Assembly (NCBI GenBank): GCA_028285105.1
Contig: JANQQE010000024.1
Location: 124,001-188,000, forward strand
DNA: 64,000 nucleotides
From: Alphaproteobacteria bacterium
Lineage (GTDB): Bacteria > Planctomycetota > Phycisphaerae > UBA1845
Direction of reading: 5' to 3'
Below, in pieces: positions 17,954 through 38,948 of this stretch. The position numbers and the translations under genes were made by a program. Every line of letters begins with the position of its first letter. Position 1 is the stretch's first letter. The notes beneath the pieces were generated by a model. It was given only the letters and a program-made list of their open reading frames with translations, was not told where the DNA came from and did not search any database.

Positions 17954-20900
17954 ATGAATCTATTGAACCGAGTCAGTAAGACGGAGAATTCTTCACGATT
18001 TGCCGCATCCGCCGTGCTAGCTCTGTTCGTCGAGGCGAACCTGTTTACGAATCAACCGCTCCACGCCCAAGTGATAGCAGAGCCGGCCGTGTCCAAGCAG
18101 GTTGAGCATCCGAACAATACTCCAGTCGCCGAATTGTTCAGTGGTTCCTATGCTGATTCAACTGACGATCCCACCACAGGGCTGAGCCAACACAATCCGA
18201 ACCAAATTGACATGGCCATTGGGGAAGAATTCAACTACATCGTGACGATTTCTTACCCTGAAGGGACCACCGCGGACACGTTTTTGATAGATCAAGCGTC
18301 ACCCACGACGCAGATCGGTGCATTCGATGACACAGTCATCGAGATCATTAGCGCAGAGGTCATCCATGTGGGCACCAATCTCAGTGGTGGACTCCCGGCG
18401 TTGGGTTTTCAAACGATCCGCGACCTGAATCCCATTGACGGAGACGGCTCGCAATTTCAGTATGGTAGCGCAACGAGTGACGTAACTGTGGTGGCGGATG
18501 GGGTCACCGATGACAAAGATCGCGTGGTGATCCGCATCCTGGCACGGCTGGACGACGAAGATGATTCAGGTGGTCTGACCGACGCCCTTGATGCAAACAA
18601 TATCGATGGGCGCGACGCTACCAATCGTGTCCAAATCGCGTGGAATTTCGGCGCCAATACTCAGCAAAGAAATAGCTTCGGTACAGTGGATATAGTGGAA
18701 TCCGATCTAAGTATCTCCCTGTCGGTGGTCGATGATTCGAGCGTGGCAATTGGCGATACGGTGAGCTTCGAACTGACCGTCAGCAACGTCGGAACGGCGA
18801 CGGCATACAACGTTGAAATCACCGATACACTTCCAAACGACGGTGTTGATGACTTCCTCTTGTTTGACGCCATAGATGCAGCAAACTCAACCTGCGACGA
18901 GATTGCTGGTTTTGCAGTGATCGGTGCGGCGCCACCGGATGTAGATTTCTCATTCGATCAGTTGGCGGCTGGGACGAGCTGCGTCATTCAGTTTGATGCC
19001 ACCGTGGATACCAGCATTACACCCGGTGATGTCTACACCAACGGCGTCGAGATCACATCCTACGACAGCCGCGACAACAACACCGACGACGACAATCGAA
19101 ATTACAGCGGTCCGACCGCGACGGCTACCGTGACGGCGGCGACAGTGGATTTGGAACTGACCAAGAGCGATGGCGATTTCTCGGCGAACCCGGGAGATAC
19201 AATCGTCTATTCGCTCGTCCACGCAAATACCGGAGGACTTGCCGCGACGGGGGTTGTACTCACCGAAACCGTTCCCGCGAATACTCGATTCAACCCATCC
19301 GAAAGTTCTGTCGGATGGAACTGTCTCCCGAACAACAACGCCGGTTCCACATGCACGCTCGACCTGGGCACACTCTCTCCAGGAGCATGCAGCACCAGCA
19401 CGCTCTTTGCGGTGGATGTCGATCTGCCCGTACTGGCAGGCGTCGATGCAATCGCCAACACAGCCAGCATCGCCGACGACGGAACAAACGGGATTGACGC
19501 CAATCTGCTGAACAACACGGCGCAGGATACGACACCGGTCACAGCCGGCGTTGACATGCGCATCGATAAGGACGACCGCGACCGGACAGCCAAGCCTGGC
19601 GAGACGATTCCCTACGCGCTGTCCATCGACAATATCGGCGATCAGAACGCAACCGGCGTCATCATGACCGAAACTGTTCCGCAACACACAACGTTCAACG
19701 CCGGTGCAAGTTCAGCCGGATGGACTTGTGCGGATGGTGCGCCAGCTGGCACGAATTGCGAATTCGACCTCAGCGCCATTATTGGAGGACAGTTTGATGG
19801 TAACGAAGACCTCGTTGTGTTGGTCACATTCGCCGTCGATGTGGACGCCACGATTCCCAGCGGAGTATACGAAATCTCCAACACGATCAGCGTGACGGAC
19901 GATGGGAACAACGGCGTCGATTCGGATTTGCAGAACAACGAGTCGAGCGCAGTGACCCCGCTTGAAGCCACCCGCCTGCTGATTACCAAGACAGCACTGC
20001 CTCCTGACGATACAGAATTCGACTTCGCATTGGATTTCGGAACGAATGCCACCGTTGACTTTACGTTATCCGACCCTACCGACGATGAGATCATCTTCAA
20101 CAACGCCTTGGCTGGCCAATATACGATTACCGAATTTGCAGTGGATGGCTGGTTGCTTGAAAGCGTGTTCTGCAATTCACCGGACTTCACATGGGCAGGC
20201 AACGTGACGACTGTCGGGTTGGACGCCGATGCTGACGTCGTTTGCACGTTTTCTAATGTGCGCGACTGCAATTCAAATGGTGTCAACGATGCCACCGATA
20301 TTACCACGACGTTCAGCGACGATTGCCAACCCAACGGCATCCCCGACGAATGCGAGATTGCGGCTGGCTCTTCTTTGGATGGTGACTTGGACGGCGTGCC
20401 GAACGAATGCGACAACTGCCCGACACTCGCCAATGCCAATCAAGCCGACTCCGATAACGATGGAACGGGCGACGTGTGCGAGTCGTCATCATCGGGCGGA
20501 GGTGGAGTGCTGATATTCGATGCAGATGGAGACGGCGTAACCGACGGCAACGATCTGTGTTTCAATACGCCAACAGGTTCAGTGGTGAATCAAGACGGAT
20601 GCAGCGACGAGCAACTCGATGACGACAACGACGGCGTGTCCAACGATGTGGATCAATGCGAAGAAACACCCGCAGGCGAGCCCGTCGATGACGACGGATG
20701 CAGCCAGTCGCAGATCGTCGTTGAGCCTGAACCGACACCATCGCCCAGTCCATCGCCGCAACCGTCACCCGAACCATCGCCATCGCCAAGTCCAACCCCG
20801 GCTCCGGACGATCAACCGCTTCCGGACGATTCCGATGATGACGGCGTCAGCGACGACGAAGACGACTGCCCGAATCCAGCCGGTACCGGTCCAAATGGAT

Positions 20901-21085
20901 GCCCTGTAGAAAACGACGGCAATGACACAGGCGGTGAAGAAGAATCGATGTGCGGCGCAGGAGCGGGCCCCTGCGGACCGATCGGAGCCGTTAGCCTATG
21001 GTTCACCTTCGCCGTCTTAACAAGGATGCGCTATCGAAGACGCATTGAGCGCTGTCATGTCGCCTTGCACCATGAAAAGCATTAA
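17954..21085 (+). CDS. Large secreted surface protein with DUF11 and thrombospondin type-3 repeats
   Basis: A 1043-residue protein with a signal peptide (cleavage near LHAQ), a N-terminal beta domain, three DUF11-type repeats at about 249-395, 398-525 and 533-670 (each opening with a variant of 'VDLELTKSDGDFSANPGD'), an SpaA/prealbumin-like domain at about 673-770, the planctomycete motif DCNSNGVNDATDI / QPNGIPDECEI, calcium-binding TSP3 repeats (DSDNDGTGDVC, DDDNDGVSNDVDQC) to about 915, a Pro-Ser stalk (925-952), and a C-terminal tail: Cys-Gly-rich CGAGAGPCGP, hydrophobic helix, then Arg cluster. The tail resembles a sorting signal of the MYXO-CTERM/PEP-CTERM type. Likely a calcium-stiffened surface adhesin or sheath protein. 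Confidence 0.85.
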   Translation: MNLLNRVSKTENSSRFAASAVLALFVEANLFTNQPLHAQVIAEPAVSKQVEHPNNTPVAELFSGSYADSTDDPTTGLSQHNPNQIDMAIGEEFNYIVTISYPEGTTADTFLIDQASPTTQIGAFDDTVIEIISAEVIHVGTNLSGGLPALGFQTIRDLNPIDGDGSQFQYGSATSDVTVVADGVTDDKDRVVIRILARLDDEDDSGGLTDALDANNIDGRDATNRVQIAWNFGANTQQRNSFGTVDIVESDLSISLSVVDDSSVAIGDTVSFELTVSNVGTATAYNVEITDTLPNDGVDDFLLFDAIDAANSTCDEIAGFAVIGAAPPDVDFSFDQLAAGTSCVIQFDATVDTSITPGDVYTNGVEITSYDSRDNNTDDDNRNYSGPTATATVTAATVDLELTKSDGDFSANPGDTIVYSLVHANTGGLAATGVVLTETVPANTRFNPSESSVGWNCLPNNNAGSTCTLDLGTLSPGACSTSTLFAVDVDLPVLAGVDAIANTASIADDGTNGIDANLLNNTAQDTTPVTAGVDMRIDKDDRDRTAKPGETIPYALSIDNIGDQNATGVIMTETVPQHTTFNAGASSAGWTCADGAPAGTNCEFDLSAIIGGQFDGNEDLVVLVTFAVDVDATIPSGVYEISNTISVTDDGNNGVDSDLQNNESSAVTPLEATRLLITKTALPPDDTEFDFALDFGTNATVDFTLSDPTDDEIIFNNALAGQYTITEFAVDGWLLESVFCNSPDFTWAGNVTTVGLDADADVVCTFSNVRDCNSNGVNDATDITTTFSDDCQPNGIPDECEIAAGSSLDGDLDGVPNECDNCPTLANANQADSDNDGTGDVCESSSSGGGGVLIFDADGDGVTDGNDLCFNTPTGSVVNQDGCSDEQLDDDNDGVSNDVDQCEETPAGEPVDDDGCSQSQIVVEPEPTPSPSPSPQPSPEPSPSPSPTPAPDDQPLPDDSDDDGVSDDEDDCPNPAGTGPNGCPVENDGNDTGGEEESMCGAGAGPCGPIGAVSLWFTFAVLTRMRYRRRIERCHVALHHEKH

Positions 21086-30877: not shown

Positions 30878-32689
30878 TCAGGCGGTAGCGGTGCCTGTTA
30901 GGCTTGCACCTGCAATCGGAATCAAACAAACATCCTGCGTGCTGTGGCCGGTGAGTTGCGTGATGGACACCGTTTGTGCGGGGTGCTTGGGCTCATTGCC
31001 GTTCCAGATCACGATGCGGTCGCGGGCGTCGTTGATGGCGACGATGATGTCTGCGGCGCATTCGGCGCGACGGATGGTCTGACCGCCGGCATCGTAGCGG
31101 CAGACGAAAGAATCGCCCAGTACCTGCGAGTAGACGGCCAGCGACGTGTCGGTGTAGAACAATCGGGCGACATCGCCATCGATGATCGAAGCGATGGATT
31201 CGACGGCTCGGCGGCTGCCGGCATGAATCCGCGCTGGCGATTCGCAGGTTAGACCATTCCAGTGCAGGACATCGCCATCGACCGTACCCGCGAAGATGTC
31301 GTCGCCTTCGACCGACAGAGCGGTGATCGTGTCGCCGCGTGCGGACAGTTCTGCAACACCGGATTCGAGATCGCCTTCCAACACGCTGCAAATGGTATCG
31401 TCGATGCTGCACCAGAAACGCCCGGTGGCGATCAGTGCGCAGCGAACGGCTTTGGCGTTTGGGGTTTTGTCATCGAATAGCCGAATGGCCTTCGTATTGG
31501 GCTTGCCTTCGGAATCGTCCTCTTGTTGTTGCGGCCAGGCGAGTACGCCCAGTTCCGAATGGGTCGCGACCACCCAGCGATCGCTGACCGCCACCGCATT
31601 GAAACCCCCGCGCGGCACTTTGGCACAGGTGTAGACGAATGTATTCTTGATCGCGCCGCTTGCGACATCGAGTTCATACACACCGGTCGAAGCACCAATC
31701 CATAACGTGTTTGGCTCGGCGGCGCTTGCGAACTGAACCGATCGCATCCGCCCCGCCACACCACTGACCGGGATGCGTCGAGGGGAATCGCCGAGACTGC
31801 TTGCACCGAATAGCAGGACTTCGCTACCCGTGAGTGCGACGACGTGCTCGGTGACGGGTTGCGTCGCCCGCGATTCGAACAGTGCCTGATAAAGTTGCCC
31901 ACGCTGCGATTCGGAAAACGCCTTCATCAAATCCGACATCGCGGCATGTGGCGACTCGTCGGCGAGTTCTTTCAGCTTGCCCAACATCGACTGGAGATGA
32001 TCGAGCTTTTGATTTTGCGCCGTGGTGATGGCCTCTCGCAATTCGCCCTGCGCGGCGTGTTCGTGCAATCGGCGGGCTGCGATTTCTTCGGTTGCTCGGG
32101 CGCGGGCGTGCCCTTCAGATGCGAAGCGCACCTCGCGAATGGTTTCAATCGACAACCCGCTCGCAAAGCATATCTCGGCGACGGATTCCTTGACCGCCTC
32201 AATAGCAGCCGCTCCGCACTTTCCGCCGACCAGTTCTCCAGACGTATTTGCTGCGACGAACGCCAACATGCCCTTTTCGATCGATGGGCGCAGGCACGAT
32301 TGCACGGACGCGACATCCGCATCCGATCGACTGGCAATGACCCGATCGCGAAACGAATCAAGATCGCTGCGCTCGGCAACGAGTGCGACCTGCACCTGCA
32401 CGGCAACATCGCAAAGGTAACTGTCGCTCGCGGGAACCTTCTGCATTTCAAACGTCAGGTCGATCGGTTGGCTGCGGAAAATCAGCAACTCCGCCAGATC
32501 GCTGCCGTCGATGACCTGCCCGGGGCGATGAATGCGATGAACACCGTCGCGCGAAATCGACTTCGCCGCAAAACTTGCCGGCAAATCGAAGCTTCGCTTG
32601 AACACCCCGAAGATCGCTTCTGCCGGAATGGAGACGGCAACCGAGTTCGGGTTCGACAACCATTTTTGAATGTCGATGACGCTACTCAT
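30878..32689 (-). CDS. SPFH/Band-7-like domain fused to a beta-propeller
   Basis: A 603-residue soluble-looking protein with no signal or membrane helix. Residues about 15-215 look like an SPFH (prohibitin/stomatin) domain of the YdjI type: IPAEAIFGVFKRSFD at the start, then SDSYLCDVAVQVQVALV, and a helical end with ASGLSIETIREVRF. A charged coiled coil (about 215-285) follows, then six or seven propeller-like blades (AVSDRWVVATHSELGVLAW, ALSVEGDDIFAGTVDGDVLHW). In B. subtilis an SPFH protein (YdjI) binds PspA at membranes, and here the gene is last in the cluster with three Snf7-like proteins and PspC. It is separated from the AAA gene by 140 bases, so it may have its own promoter as well. 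Confidence 0.68.
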   Translation of the reverse strand: MSSVIDIQKWLSNPNSVAVSIPAEAIFGVFKRSFDLPASFAAKSISRDGVHRIHRPGQVIDGSDLAELLIFRSQPIDLTFEMQKVPASDSYLCDVAVQVQVALVAERSDLDSFRDRVIASRSDADVASVQSCLRPSIEKGMLAFVAANTSGELVGGKCGAAAIEAVKESVAEICFASGLSIETIREVRFASEGHARARATEEIAARRLHEHAAQGELREAITTAQNQKLDHLQSMLGKLKELADESPHAAMSDLMKAFSESQRGQLYQALFESRATQPVTEHVVALTGSEVLLFGASSLGDSPRRIPVSGVAGRMRSVQFASAAEPNTLWIGASTGVYELDVASGAIKNTFVYTCAKVPRGGFNAVAVSDRWVVATHSELGVLAWPQQQEDDSEGKPNTKAIRLFDDKTPNAKAVRCALIATGRFWCSIDDTICSVLEGDLESGVAELSARGDTITALSVEGDDIFAGTVDGDVLHWNGLTCESPARIHAGSRRAVESIASIIDGDVARLFYTDTSLAVYSQVLGDSFVCRYDAGGQTIRRAECAADIIVAINDARDRIVIWNGNEPKHPAQTVSITQLTGHSTQDVCLIPIAGASLTGTATA

Positions 32690-32829: not shown

Positions 32830-33948
32830 TTACCGGCCGGTCTGTTTGAACTTGTCGAAGCGGACGAGGTCACCGGGCTTGACCGAGGGCAGTTGTGCCT
32901 CGATGCGACTCAGCATGTCGGCGAGCGTGATTTGCCGCTCACCCCCACCCATCGCATCCATGAACGCGACCTGGGCAGCCCCCATGCAGATGTTTTTGAT
33001 GTCGGCCCCGCTGTAACCATCCAACCGATCGCAGAGTACGCCAAGGTCGATGTCGGCGGCGATGGGTCGGTCAGCCAGGTAAATCTCCAGAAGCTTAAAG
33101 CGCGCCGGCGCGTCGGGCAGCCCGACATACACCTGCGTATCGAAGCGCCCGGGTCGCAGCATCGCTTCATCGAGCATCCACGGTTTATTCGTCGCCCCAA
33201 CGAACAACAGTGCCCGTTCGCCCTTGCGATCGAACCCTTCCAGTTCCTGCAAGATCTGCGGAACAACGCGGGCCATCACCGTCGATCCTTCGGACTTGCG
33301 ACGTGGGACGAGCGCCTCAATCTCGTCGATAAAAATCACCGAACGTTTGTGCTGCTTTGCCGTCTCGAAAAGCTTGCGAACGTTTTGCTCAGCTTCTCCC
33401 ACCCACTTCGAAAGAATCTGCGCGGGGCTGATGACGAAAAACGTCGAATCAATTTCCTTCGCGATGGCTTTGGCCATCATCGTCTTACCGGTTCCGGGCG
33501 GGCCATACAGCAGCACACCGCCACCGATGTTGATCCCGTACTTCGCCGCAAGTTCCGGGTGACTGAACGGATAGATCATCTTAAGGCGAATTTCCTGCTT
33601 GATGTCTTCCAACCCGGCGATGTCGTCGAAACCGATGTCGGGAGTGTCCTGTACGATCCAATCGGATGCAGAAGCGCCCTCGTCTTCGTTTTCCTTAGCA
33701 CGTTGACGGAAGCGCCCGTCTTCAGGATTGGCTTCGTATCGTTTGCAGTCCTTGGCGAGGTCGATCAGCTCTGCGGCGACTTCTTCGCGCTGACGACGCA
33801 GCTCGGGCGTGTCGCTTTCTCCCGCGAGTTCGACCATGCAGTCAGCCGCTTCGATCAGGAACGTGCCGGCGGATGCGTAGTCGCCCTTCTTGTATGCGGT
33901 GACGCCTTTGCTCTTGAGCCTCTCGAATGTGGAGTAGGATACGCCCAT
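32830..33948 (-). CDS. Vps4-like AAA ATPase with MIT-like N-terminal domain
   Basis: A 372-residue AAA protein. Residues about 5-75 form a three-helix MIT/TPR-like bundle (GDYASAGTFLIEAADCMVEL), followed by a linker and one AAA module: Walker A GPPGTGKT (149-156), pore loop SKWVGEAEQNVRKLF (180-194), Walker B FIDEIE (206-211), sensor/Arg-finger region GATNKPWMLDEAMLRPGRFD (251-270) and DGYSGADIKNI. The pore loop, the PWxLD signature and the overall 'MIT-linker-AAA' order match Vps4/katanin (meiotic-clade) ATPases, which disassemble ESCRT-III polymers; the LRPGRFD element is instead the general classic-AAA form. It lies nine bases after the CHMP-like gene. A canonical bacterial AAA of the p97/SpoVK type is the main alternative. 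Confidence 0.82.
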   Translation of the reverse strand: MGVSYSTFERLKSKGVTAYKKGDYASAGTFLIEAADCMVELAGESDTPELRRQREEVAAELIDLAKDCKRYEANPEDGRFRQRAKENEDEGASASDWIVQDTPDIGFDDIAGLEDIKQEIRLKMIYPFSHPELAAKYGINIGGGVLLYGPPGTGKTMMAKAIAKEIDSTFFVISPAQILSKWVGEAEQNVRKLFETAKQHKRSVIFIDEIEALVPRRKSEGSTVMARVVPQILQELEGFDRKGERALLFVGATNKPWMLDEAMLRPGRFDTQVYVGLPDAPARFKLLEIYLADRPIAADIDLGVLCDRLDGYSGADIKNICMGAAQVAFMDAMGGGERQITLADMLSRIEAQLPSVKPGDLVRFDKFKQTGR

Positions 33949-33957
33949 GATGTGCGG

Positions 33958-34563
33958 TTACTTCTGCTTCTCGCTCTTGCCTTTGAGGGCATCGATTTCG
34001 GCGCGGAGTCCTGCGAGTTTGCCCATTTCCTTTTGATGCTCGGCTTCGCTTTCGGCTTCGATCATGCGGTCAATCTCTTCGTCGCTGATGCCGTCAGCCG
34101 ACGTCATTTCCACATCCTGCTGGGCGACATCTTCAATTGTATCGAGGAACATGCCCATGCGCTCTTCCATCGTCTGCGACTGAACCATCGCCTTTTCCCA
34201 ATCGGCTTGCGTTTTGACCAAATCGGTTTCGCCGAAGAGCTTGCCGATTTCGCTGGCCATCATGCCCATCGCACCGGCGAAGTCGGCCGACGCTTCAGCT
34301 TGCTTCTTGATTACCATCGCGTTTTTGACGCTGAGCAGTTGGCGTTCCAGCACGCGCTTCATCGCAGCCGTTTTCTTGAGCGTGTTGCGAATGAACTGAT
34401 ACTGCGCGGTGTCGCCGATTTCCTTAGCGCGGCGGGCGTTCTGGACGAACTCGTCGGTGAACTTGCCCTGTTCGCGAATGGCTTTCTCGATACGGCGGAT
34501 GCCCTGGCGAATCTTGATATCGCGTTCAATACGACGCTCTTCGTTGGATTTGAATAAAGCCAC
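33958..34563 (-). CDS. CHMP/ESCRT-III-like helical protein with MIM1-like C-terminus
   Basis: A 201-residue, almost wholly helical protein. The first half is basic (MALFKSNEERRIERDIK...RRIEKAIREQGK), the second half acidic (EERMGMFLDTIEDVA, SDEEIDRMIEAESEAE), the charge asymmetry typical of Snf7/CHMP proteins. A Met/Gly-rich hinge (FAGAMGMMASEIGKLF, about 95-110) falls where CHMPs have a similar segment. The last helix contains LRAEIDALK (186-194), which fits the MIM1 pattern LxxRLxxLK with Glu for Arg and Ile for Leu; MIM1 is what Vps4 MIT binds. The GTG start at 34563 shares a base with the pspC stop (TAGTG), giving coupling, and the Vps4-like gene follows after nine bases. PspA is a distant alternative of the same superfamily. 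Confidence 0.7.
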   Translation of the reverse strand: MALFKSNEERRIERDIKIRQGIRRIEKAIREQGKFTDEFVQNARRAKEIGDTAQYQFIRNTLKKTAAMKRVLERQLLSVKNAMVIKKQAEASADFAGAMGMMASEIGKLFGETDLVKTQADWEKAMVQSQTMEERMGMFLDTIEDVAQQDVEMTSADGISDEEIDRMIEAESEAEHQKEMGKLAGLRAEIDALKGKSEKQK

Positions 34564-34763
34564 TAGTCGTACTCTCGCTCAGGAATCAACATCCACAGTA
34601 TGAAATACACGAGTACGCCCGCAAACGCCGTAAAGATCGATAAGAGTACGTATACGACGCGAACAGTGGTCGGGTCCAAACCAAAATAATCTGCGATCCC
34701 GCTACACACGCCGGCAATCTGAACGTTTTGACGACTCCTTCTCAATGGATATGGTGATGACAT
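34563..34763 (-). CDS. pspC: PspC domain membrane protein
   Basis: A 66-residue protein with the full PspC domain: LRRSRQNVQIAGVCSGIADYFGLDPTTVRV followed by one long hydrophobic helix ending in YFILWMLIPE. PspC proteins sit in the inner membrane and anchor or signal to PspA, a member of the ESCRT-III superfamily. Start ATG 34763 has a GA-rich site (GAGGCGGG) upstream; a TTG seven codons earlier is less likely. The stop overlaps the GTG of the next gene. Its position between two Snf7-like genes ties the cluster to phage-shock type membrane stress. Confidence 0.93.
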   Translation of the reverse strand: MSSPYPLRRSRQNVQIAGVCSGIADYFGLDPTTVRVVYVLLSIFTAFAGVLVYFILWMLIPEREYD

Positions 34764-34806: not shown

Positions 34807-35415
34807 CTACTCTGTCGCGGCGTTCTGCTGTTCGCGGACGCGGCGGTCGGCTTCGTCAAACGCTTCGGTGGAATCCTCGATCGCCCCGCGATCCATCTGA
34901 TCCCAGACGTCCAGCACCGTTTGCCCTGCATCGGAAAGGGCGGCTGACCCCTCATCCACTTCGCGTCCAAGCTTCAGCACTTCGTCGAGTCGCTCCTGGT
35001 ATAACTCCGTTTTGATCGAATCGTTCTCGATCATCTTTCCGAGTCGCAGAATGTCCTTCTCGCTGATGAGTCCGAGTTGGCTTCCGGCGCTGGCGGCGCG
35101 GTCTGCATTTTCGCGCATCATCCGCAGGCGCGAAACCGTCATCATCTCTTTGCTGCGAATGTTGAGCTGCCTTGAAAGCATTAATTGCTCGGACGTCTTA
35201 AGCTCAAACTCTTGCGCCATCATACGGCGCACTTCGGGGACTTTTTCGTTGGCCCCCTTCTCGAAAAGTTCCTGCTTCTGCCGCGCGAGTTTCATCGTTT
35301 TGTTGACGAGCTGCGTGCGGTCTTTTTCCAGCAGCAACTCCTGACGCCGCAATTCTGCACGGGTCATCTTCGACAACGGTTTCTTGCGCTTCACCAGCCA
35401 ATCCATCAAAGACAT
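34807..35415 (-). CDS. Second Snf7/ESCRT-III-like coiled-coil protein
   Basis: A 202-residue all-helical protein. The N-terminal amphipathic/basic start (MSLMDWLVKRKKPLSKMTR) leads into a long hairpin-like pair of helices (LRRQELLLEKDRTQLVNKTMKL, then after the turn EKGANEKVPEVRRMMAQEFELKT), followed by an acidic tail (QTVLDVWDQMDRGAIEDSTEAFDE). Basic hairpin with acidic C-terminus and a lone Gly-containing turn is the ESCRT-III core plan. No MIM1-like ending as clear as in the 33958 product. It begins three bases after the stop of the winged-helix gene. Assignment rests on pattern and context; plain coiled-coil protein is the alternative. Confidence 0.58.
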   Translation of the reverse strand: MSLMDWLVKRKKPLSKMTRAELRRQELLLEKDRTQLVNKTMKLARQKQELFEKGANEKVPEVRRMMAQEFELKTSEQLMLSRQLNIRSKEMMTVSRLRMMRENADRAASAGSQLGLISEKDILRLGKMIENDSIKTELYQERLDEVLKLGREVDEGSAALSDAGQTVLDVWDQMDRGAIEDSTEAFDEADRRVREQQNAATE

Positions 35416-35418
35416 GCG

Positions 35419-36873
35419 TTAACTGGCCTCCGGATCGGCGGGTTTGCGCTCTTTGGTTTCAGGCGCTTTTGGTTCTTCGTCGAACATCGCAAACGACTGA
35501 TCGGAAGCGGCTGGCTGGCTTGTCTGTTTGGGCGTGGCGCTCGGCGTAGACGACTCTGCCGCCACTGGCTCATCGAACTCTGCAAGGATGTCGGCTTCTT
35601 CGCCACCGATCAGCGCTTCGCCCACACCGGTTTCCAGACTCGACACCAGGTCGGAATCAGCTTTTAACGTTTCAAGCATTTCTTCTGCCCGAACAGCATT
35701 TTCCGTCAACTCCTGCGTGTCGGGCAGCGACGCGACTTCTCCCTGCTGGATCAGCGTGAGATTGTGAACGTCGGTGCTGATGATGTTGATCTGCTGATTG
35801 AGCATGTTCGCCGTCGTGTTCTGACGAGCAATATCTTTGCGAAGCTGCGAAATCTGCGCAACCAACCGCCGGCGCACGACGGCAGACTTGTTCTCGCGCC
35901 CCTGCTTGAGAAGATCGGCTTCCTTCTCTTCGAGGCTGGCGATCTCTTCGTACAATCGGTTGCGACGCTGCGCGAGGGCAGCCCGCCGCTCCGAAAGCAT
36001 GTTGATCTTCGCGACCTCGTCTCCCTCCTTGGAAAACATCTCTTTGATACGGTCAACAAAACTCATAGACGTTTTCTCCGTGGCGACAACAGCCGCACCG
36101 CGATACAACAATCGCCCTTCCTTCGACTTGGACACCCGCAGTTCCGGGTCGCTCTTGGCGATCAGGTCCAGGGCCCGATTCACGACCTCGATCGGCAGGC
36201 CCACATCCTGGGCAATTCGATCCGATGCCAGCCCGCCGGTCAACAATTCGGTACCATTTCGCTCCACTTCGCGTTTGACCCGCTCAAGTTTCTGCTCGAT
36301 GTCCTCCGGGTCGAACATGTCGCGTACGAACTTTTGCACGCTGTCATCGGCAGTGACCTTCCAACCACCGCCCGGCAGCGGCTCCACCAATACCACATCC
36401 ATGTTCGGATATTCGTGTCGGGCATTGCGAGCTTCTTCGGTGAAACCGCTCGTCGAACACACGCCGACGACGGCACGCACCTTCGAGTCCGGAGCAATCT
36501 CTCGAAGGTGGGCGGTCAACTCGTTGAGCGACACCGGTTGTGGGTTACCGCCTTCGTCGAGCAAGTCGTCAAATCGCGACGTCACCGACGCAATCGCCGA
36601 CCCCGTCTGCCGCTTCCAGAATATGAATCGCTTCTCGTATCCGTTGACGCTGACAGTACGGTTCTTCGGCATCTGTTTGAGCAATGTGCGGTCGTACAGC
36701 CGCTTCGACGCCATCTGCGCCCGAAGCGCATCGCTGTCGTCTTTCTCGACCGTCTGCCAACTGCTGCCCCGAAGGTAGCGACTCTTGGCTTCTTCGATGT
36801 TGGCGGTCACGCCGGCGAGAAACTGATTCTCAACCTTCAACGCATCTGCCGCCGCATCGGTTAGTTTGGCCAT
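35419..36873 (-). CDS. Winged-helix plus Snf7-like protein (CHMP7-like architecture)
   Basis: A 484-residue protein with three parts. Residues 1-200: alpha/beta region with strands RAVVGVCSTSGF and DVVLVEPLPGGGW, of no family I recognise. Residues about 205-260: winged helix, with LASDRIAQDVGLPIEVVNRAL as helix-turn-helix and ELRVSKSKEGRLLYR as wing. Residues about 271-435: Snf7-like, opening SFVDRIKEMFSKEGDEVAKI, a basic hairpin (LAQRRNRLYEEIASLEEKE, VVRRRLVAQISQLRKDIARQ) and an acidic end (GGEEADILAEFDE) like CHMP4/Snf7 helix 5. A Pro/Ser/acidic tail follows. Winged helix joined to ESCRT-III is the layout of eukaryotic CHMP7. ATG 36873 has GAAGGAA upstream. Confidence 0.62.
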   Translation of the reverse strand: MAKLTDAAADALKVENQFLAGVTANIEEAKSRYLRGSSWQTVEKDDSDALRAQMASKRLYDRTLLKQMPKNRTVSVNGYEKRFIFWKRQTGSAIASVTSRFDDLLDEGGNPQPVSLNELTAHLREIAPDSKVRAVVGVCSTSGFTEEARNARHEYPNMDVVLVEPLPGGGWKVTADDSVQKFVRDMFDPEDIEQKLERVKREVERNGTELLTGGLASDRIAQDVGLPIEVVNRALDLIAKSDPELRVSKSKEGRLLYRGAAVVATEKTSMSFVDRIKEMFSKEGDEVAKINMLSERRAALAQRRNRLYEEIASLEEKEADLLKQGRENKSAVVRRRLVAQISQLRKDIARQNTTANMLNQQINIISTDVHNLTLIQQGEVASLPDTQELTENAVRAEEMLETLKADSDLVSSLETGVGEALIGGEEADILAEFDEPVAAESSTPSATPKQTSQPAASDQSFAMFDEEPKAPETKERKPADPEAS

Positions 36874-38421: not shown

Positions 38422-38826
38422 CTACAATTGATCTTCGAAATGAGACGCTTGAAAGTCGCAGACCAGAAAATTATAGACCGCCGCACATAGGAATCCAAGC
38501 AGCAGTACCATCCAAGTCAGCGCACCGCTCACGTTCCAGTTGGCCAGGTACAACGCAAACAACACGTCTACCGCTACAAGTCCGAACAATAGCAAACCGG
38601 CTGCGACATTGGAGTCCTGCTTCACCACGCGCCCGGTCACAAAGAACGCAGCCCAGGGCAGAACCAGCACCAACCCCAACCATACCAGTACGCCCTTGAG
38701 TACCGACCAGATCGTCTCAAGTTGCTCGGGATGTTTGTAGAACCAAAACGCGCTGGCTGCACTTGCCACGATGAGGATCGCGGTGAGCACTTTGCCTCCA
38801 ACATATTTGCCGATTGTGGCGTACAT
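38422..38826 (-). CDS. Four-helix membrane protein, first gene of the ESCRT-like cluster
   Basis: A 134-residue protein with hydrophobic segments at about 12-27, 45-66 (GVLVWLGLVLVLPWAAFFVTG), 75-93 and 98-118, and short loops; the end is acidic/aromatic (CDFQASHFEDQL). I recognise no family. Start ATG 38826 has a very good site (GGAGGA five bases before); the frame is open 20 codons further upstream. It precedes the kinase by 57 bases. As the first gene of the cluster it may be the membrane sensor or anchor. Confidence 0.65.
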   Translation of the reverse strand: MYATIGKYVGGKVLTAILIVASAASAFWFYKHPEQLETIWSVLKGVLVWLGLVLVLPWAAFFVTGRVVKQDSNVAAGLLLFGLVAVDVLFALYLANWNVSGALTWMVLLLGFLCAAVYNFLVCDFQASHFEDQL

Positions 38827-38948
38827 AAATTCCTCCGAGAATCCGAGATGCTGCCCCGTGCGAGACACGATCCCAGCCGATTCCAATGAGAGTTTAACCC
38901 ACGCTTGGGCGCTGGGCGATTAGAAAGCCCAGTCCATTGTATACCGGC

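Follow-up and report, generated by a model that had tools for sequence, protein, structure and literature searches.

A planctomycete gene cluster that probably encodes an ESCRT-like membrane-remodeling system

What kind of machinery is encoded by a bacterial locus whose central gene joins a winged helix to an Snf7-like helical domain? A 2024 survey in mBio found systems combining vps4 and ESCRT-III genes only in archaea and eukaryotes (PMC10936438), and a conserved bacterial locus with vps4-like and ESCRT-III-like genes, in a phylum of unusual membranes and FtsZ-less division, would matter for the question of how ESCRT originated. We analyzed this gene (P0001) and its neighbors in a 64,000-nucleotide stretch of planctomycete DNA, hereafter the window, and conclude that the locus probably encodes a bacterial ESCRT-like membrane-remodeling system. 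The parts assigned to it are three proteins that share the helical plan of ESCRT-III or are tied to it by profiles (the C-terminal unit of P0001, P0002, and P0003), a Vps4-type AAA ATPase, a winged helix, an SPFH-like protein, PspC, small membrane proteins, and a Ser/Thr kinase.

The P0001 gene runs on the minus strand from 36873 down to 35419 and encodes 484 amino acids that comprise, as judged from the translation and a structural model, an alpha/beta domain, a winged helix, an ESCRT-III-like unit, and an acidic disordered tail. The open reading frame (ORF) is genuine, and within the order 100 of 114 genomes contain at least one match, with internal stops absent from almost every one. The named relatives belong to metagenome-assembled genomes of Phycisphaerae and other planctomycetes, and identity among the 48 that were aligned spans 90 to 23 percent. 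The opposite strand also contains long open frames (35764-36864, plus; 366 and 313 amino acids), which resemble shadow ORFs of a G+C-rich gene. One genome (G066) carries a second copy of the fused gene (L056), 33 percent identical and situated close to the end of a different contig; no further operon gene was recognized within the 10 kb examined there.

The architecture of P0001 was predicted with an AlphaFold2 model built on the 48-sequence alignment (mean pLDDT, 81.2). Residues 1 to 190 (36304..36873, minus strand) adopt a confident alpha/beta fold, with block pLDDT mostly of 86 to 96, in line with the initial annotation, which had delimited such a domain at residues 1 to 200; outside the order, this domain is also part of separate winged-helix proteins. 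The winged helix (residues 191 to 260; 36094..36303, minus strand), previously placed at about residues 205 to 260, was modeled at 192 to 258 with helices 192-205, 207-212, 217-224, and 228-241 and strands 245-250 and 253-258. Its best structural matches are Zalpha, GntR, and other winged-helix regulators (Z of about 8 to 9.5), and FeoC and MarR-like proteins are its best natural profile matches. ESCRT-II does not appear among the 50 structural matches listed for the P0001 model, which does not amount to an exclusion; the proposed ESCRT-II-likeness of the winged helix, singled out by neither structure nor profile searches, is neither shown nor excluded.

The segment following the winged helix (residues 270 to 436; 35566..36066, minus strand), assigned to the ESCRT-III-like group by VIA-align and by hhalign with the S2 family, is modeled as helices 272-280, 286-327, 331-380, 386-420, and 422-434. 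A helix 1-2 hairpin is present and is followed by the shorter helices 3 to 5, i.e., the ESCRT-III plan, and the short helix 272-280 could lie on a membrane. VIA-align ranked Snf7 (9jsd) at the top (Z, 10.9; root mean square deviation [rmsd], 1.4 Å over 88 residues), ahead of Shrub (5vo5), Snf7 (5fd7), CHMP1B (6tz9), Asgard ESCRT-IIIB (9ftl), and Vipp1 (8qbs), with a few unrelated helical proteins interspersed. This ranking alone is not proof, since helical hairpins reach such Z scores by chance and values under about 13 can reflect a common arrangement. Foldseek returned nothing below an E-value of 0.001 for the P0001 or P0003 model, a single-sequence search of the PDB with P0001 retrieved only chance coiled coils, and Pfam Snf7 was listed neither for P0001 nor among the families most often matched by its relatives. 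The lack of a Pfam Snf7 match is the reason why we call this unit ESCRT-III-like and not a member of the family. The model thus agrees with the Snf7-like unit annotated at 271 to 435, and its junction to a winged helix is backed by both structure and operon context. The annotated course from a basic hairpin to an acidic helix holds only in part (net charges of 0, +4, and -14 for residues 286-327, 328-380, and 381-436, respectively).

On the minus strand, the gene order is P0008, P0007, P0006, P0001, P0002, PspC, P0003, P0004, and P0005. The conserved run begins with P0008 (K1; 38422..38886), a small hydrophobic membrane protein that keeps its position in most loci of the order, followed by P0007 (37273..38364), a Ser/Thr protein kinase with a double zinc ribbon (Pfam Pkinase, 3.8e-41; DZR, 9.2e-9), and P0006 (36909..37253), a small protein with a hydrophobic N terminus and a zinc ribbon (Pfam Zn_Ribbon_1, 4e-4, under the curated cutoff). 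Downstream, P0002 starts 3 bases past the stop codon of P0001, and a 66-amino-acid PspC-domain membrane protein (34563..34763; Pfam PspC, 7.5e-25) is encoded between P0002 and P0003, its stop codon overlapping the GTG start of the latter; this gene is absent from many relatives of the operon. P0005 (PROP; 603 amino acids; 30878..32689) combines an SPFH/Band 7-like N terminus, a coiled region, and a likely beta-propeller, the last predicted from repeats and weak matches. The Band 7 assignment comes from relatives: P0005 itself does not match Band_7 (PF01145), and 7 of 19 family members do (best, 7.8e-4). Among the 31 loci of this Phycisphaerae order, some of them shortened by contig ends, the genes present lie on a single strand in every case and keep the same order in 30. 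L060 is the sole rearranged locus, with the S3 and ATPase genes beyond the kinase end of the cluster. Elsewhere in the window, positions 17954-21085 (plus strand) encode a 1043-amino-acid, probably surface-exposed protein with DUF11 repeats, thrombospondin type 3 repeats, and a prealbumin-like domain.

Two further proteins of the operon, P0002 (S2; 202 amino acids; 34807..35415, minus strand) and P0003 (S3; 201 amino acids; 33958..34563, minus strand), were linked to ESCRT-III at the level of families. Neither matches Pfam Snf7 as a single sequence. The P0002 family aligned with the ESCRT-III-like part of P0001 with an E-value of 1.2e-5, which improved to 4.8e-9 over 183 columns upon wider sampling (hhalign; reversed-profile controls, 0.3 to 0.5). 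The profile links of S3 to the P0001 unit (0.0045; controls, 0.06 to 0.1) and to S2 (0.016; controls, 0.17 to 0.21) are weak. An S3 alignment restricted to the order gave three weak Pfam Snf7 matches, and three P0003 relatives scanned for this family all stayed under the curated Pfam cutoff (27.3 bits). A search of the phylum recovered S3, patchily spread, in 56 of 392 genomes; with these relatives added, 18 of 30 members matched Pfam Snf7 (best, 2.7e-6). When the widened S3 profile was run against 177,635 distinct PDB sequences, the six matches below an E-value of 10 were all ESCRT-III proteins (Snf7, 0.0063; CHMP3, 0.0078; CHMP2A, 0.14). Only this widened alignment gave matches, the A2 and the small A3 profiles retrieving nothing useful from the PDB. 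The P0003 model (pLDDT, 71) consists of helices 7-49, 52-109, 115-153, and 161-200. Foldseek placed a CHMP2A-CHMP3 chain first and CdvB second, with poor E-values, and VIA-align superposed CHMP2A with a Z of 8.9 (rmsd, 1.9 Å over 109 residues), BAR and bMERB rows ranking above the ESCRT-III rows. The acidic C-terminal part of P0003 ends in an amphipathic helix with a conserved LxxLRAELxxLK pattern that resembles MIM1 by eye.

P0004 (372 amino acids; 32830..33948, minus strand) carries an MIT/TPR-like N terminus and one AAA domain (Pfam AAA, 2.1e-41) with Walker A, Walker B, sensor 1, and arginine fingers. Its pore loop, SKWVGE (SKW[VM]GE in 26 of 33 orthologues), is close to the SKW[LM]GE of Vps4 chains in the PDB. 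NCBIfam CdvC covers residues 16 to 366 (2.9e-68), the sole full-length match in the genome; because its 230 bits fall far under the curated cutoff of 650, we refer to P0004 as Vps4-like and not as CdvC. The first 75 residues are similar to TPR as well as to MIT, with an E-value of 0.033 over 60 residues for the VPS4B MIT domain and stronger TPR matches; among the N termini of 21 family members, Pfam MIT was matched in 2 and TPR_2 in 11. The Vps4_C region scored 17.3 bits against 21.3 (E-value, 0.0049), and p97/Cdc48 rank first among PDB chains for the C-terminal region. In a tree of 46 AAA domains, Cdc48 D1 and D2 formed one group (99.8/100), and P0004, a second AAA, eukaryotic Vps4, haloarchaeal plasmid ATPases, and a Streptomyces ATPase formed the other (89.4/90). 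This is a small tree, comprising two eukaryotic Vps4 sequences (PDB chains), haloarchaeal plasmid ATPases, Cdc48 domains, and one Streptomyces ATPase, with another AAA of the same genome as the outgroup. The second AAA gene, with an MIT-like N terminus, occurs in the same locus of planctomycetes outside the order (L092, 8361-9593; L094, 1698-2912; L108, 10121-11401; and others), and its product clusters with one haloarchaeal ATPase and the eukaryotic Vps4 sequences (87.8/97). If P0003 is taken as the ESCRT-III gene, the operon places ESCRT-III near a Vps4-type ATPase, which is criterion ii of PMC10936438. Two haloarchaeal plasmids (L112, 3137-4960; L115, 3263-5242) carry, immediately upstream of the gene for a Vps4-like ATPase, an unannotated coiled-coil gene that by eye resembles ESCRT-III; a Pfam scan of this coiled-coil gene gave no Snf7 match.

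The initial annotation compared P0001 with CHMP7 and called for a search for fission and fusion variants in relatives. Inside the order, each of the 48 aligned relatives has both modules, winged helix and ESCRT-III-like unit, in one chain. Separate-gene versions were found outside it: in L092, L095, L096, and L104, an alpha/beta-winged-helix protein and an ESCRT-III-like protein are encoded by adjoining genes, and in L093, L107, L108, L110, and others the winged-helix protein occurs alone, no ESCRT-III-like partner being recognized by profile. Since the ESCRT-III-like unit, wherever found outside the order, is a separate gene beside the winged-helix gene, the fusion looks local. The simplest reading is that it arose at the base of the order, so that the CHMP7-like layout would be convergent. 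CHMP7 has a tandem ESCRT-II-like winged helix. The P0001 model contains a single one ahead of the ESCRT-III-like unit (192 to 258), preceded by an unrelated alpha/beta domain; the parallel with CHMP7 therefore stands for domain order and fails for the tandem. True orthology to CHMP7 or to an ESCRT-II/III fusion, gained from archaea or eukaryotes, is disfavored and highly improbable: the two modules do follow each other in the same order, but the lone winged helix has no specific ESCRT-II match, the N-terminal domain is additional, and the ESCRT-III-like unit is a gene of its own where detected outside the order. The likeness is thus best read as convergence. Eukaryotes are then not the only place where a winged helix has been fused ahead of an ESCRT-III-like unit, and this supports the idea that the two modules work as partners.

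The combination of parts suggests how an ESCRT-like system of this kind might operate. The SPFH, PspC, and K1 proteins would mark or anchor a membrane patch, and P0001 may bind the marked site or its cargo with its alpha/beta domain and winged helix. By analogy with the seeding of Snf7 filaments by ESCRT-II or CHMP7, the ESCRT-III-like unit of P0001 would nucleate a mixed P0002/P0003 filament. The MIT-like domain of P0004 could grip the C-terminal tail of P0003, a putative MIM-like amphipathic helix, and the ATPase would then thread and dismantle the filament, with membrane deformation, repair, or scission as the outcome; the P0007 kinase may regulate assembly. The best-supported role of the system is ATP-driven remodeling or repair of a membrane, in which, we infer, P0001 links site recognition (through its alpha/beta domain and winged helix) to filament nucleation. 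Counted against the ESCRT-like reading are the Snf7 misses of P0001, P0002, and P0003 as single sequences, the Z scores that hairpins reach by chance, the BAR and bMERB rows, TPR matches at least as good as MIT, the p97/Cdc48 ranking, and the 230 of 650 CdvC bits.

Several of these points would be accounted for if the helical proteins were unrelated coiled coils and the AAA protein were a Cdc48-like unfoldase with a TPR adaptor, acting in membrane protein quality control. The TPR matches in the N terminus of P0004, p97/Cdc48 as the best PDB relatives of its C-terminal region, and the weak single-sequence evidence for P0001 and P0002 favor this explanation, which we nevertheless consider quite improbable: the S3 profile matches exclusively ESCRT-III, the structural ranking of P0001 points the same way, and P0004 groups with Vps4, not Cdc48 (89.4/90). 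A possible, if doubtful, alternative narrows the ESCRT-like explanation to a Psp-type envelope-stress system, with derived PspA-like proteins, PspC, and a dedicated ATPase acting in repair of the cytoplasmic membrane. It draws on the PspC gene between P0002 and P0003 and on the lack of any PspA_IM30 (PF04012) match in the whole genome that carries the locus; S3 matches Snf7/CHMP and not PspA_IM30, however, and PspC is missing from many loci. Moreover, PspA occurs alongside S3 in 28 of 56 genomes, and owing to this coexistence the S3 system was rejected as a PspA substitute.

A Cdv-like division machinery, as CdvABC in Thermoproteota, was considered because Phycisphaerae divide without FtsZ, in a binary-fission-like mode whose driver is unknown (PMC6952346). 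No FtsZ match was found in the genome that carries the locus, and the weak FtsZ-family matches in 10 of 392 genomes of the phylum all fell short of the curated FtsZ cutoff. Yet S3 is patchily distributed in the phylum (56 of 392 genomes) and occurs in none of the genomes sampled from other orders of the class, the absence from these sister orders disfavoring a general division role; no CdvA was identified either. The overlap of S3 with FtsZ-like genomes is zero and not significant (Fisher P, 0.37), so that replacement of FtsZ has no statistical support. Overall, a division role is unlikely, and ATP-driven membrane remodeling or repair by an ESCRT-like system is the reading we retain.

No description of the P0001 locus was found in the open-license full texts on ESCRT in planctomycetes. 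The claim of the initial annotation that no bacterial equivalent is described mostly holds for a full vps4 plus ESCRT-III system (PMC10936438). It does not extend to the PspA-winged-helix neighborhoods of bacteria cited in the same survey, nor to the PspA and Snf7-clade genes that PMC11237479 reports next to AAA ATPases in bacteria, along with transfers of vps4-like genes without snf7. The locus is a concrete candidate for ATP-driven membrane remodeling in planctomycetes. A broader proposition, which we regard as evenly poised, is that Planctomycetota hold complete ESCRT systems (multiple ESCRT-III-like paralogues, a winged-helix adaptor, Vps4-type ATPases, SPFH, and a kinase) homologous to those of archaea; ESCRT would then not be confined to archaea and eukaryotes and would have crossed domains early or predate the archaeal ancestor.

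Among known systems, the bacterial Snf7-clade gene beside an AAA ATPase (OGG56892.1) shares a bacterial host and an ESCRT-III-type gene with the locus but has a transmembrane segment and transporter genes, and the bacterial vps4-like gene ACB74714.1 shares the host and a Vps4-like ATPase but is without snf7; the passages of PMC11237479 that describe the two mention no winged helix, SPFH, or kinase. PspA/Vipp1, of the bacterial ESCRT-III superfamily (PMC8281802), resembles the system in its ESCRT-III fold, its PspC neighbor, and the winged-helix neighbors reported for PspA, and differs in that the proteins described here lack a PF04012 match and have a dedicated Vps4-like ATPase. Eukaryotic CHMP7 likewise carries a winged helix and then an ESCRT-III-type helical domain in one chain, whereas P0001 has a single winged helix and an extra N-terminal alpha/beta domain, in a fusion confined to one planctomycete order. 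In TACK archaea, a winged helix is also joined to ESCRT-III but stands C-terminal to it (PMC10936438). CdvB/CdvC of Thermoproteota pair an ESCRT-III-type protein with an MIT-AAA ATPase in an FtsZ-less host; here, ESCRT-III-like genes stand beside an MIT/TPR-like AAA ATPase gene in a genome likewise lacking an FtsZ match, CdvA was not identified, and the genomes sampled from other orders of the class are without the system. The companions of ESCRT genes in archaea include SPFH and winged-helix proteins, kinases, and zinc ribbons (PMC10936438), a parallel that counts in favor of the ESCRT-like reading. The archaeal loci of that survey ("Main," Meth_adaptin, and Halo clades) have in common with the planctomycete one a Vps4-type ATPase, ESCRT-III genes, a winged-helix protein with an unassigned globular domain, a membrane-linked Ser/Thr kinase, and, corresponding to the SPFH-like protein described here, an SPFH protein with a zinc ribbon in one archaeal clade. 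Unlike them, the locus described here, in which no adaptin-appendage or FHA protein was recognized, resides in a bacterium and combines three ESCRT-III-like genes, a winged helix fused before an ESCRT-III-like unit, PspC, and an SPFH-like domain with a predicted propeller.
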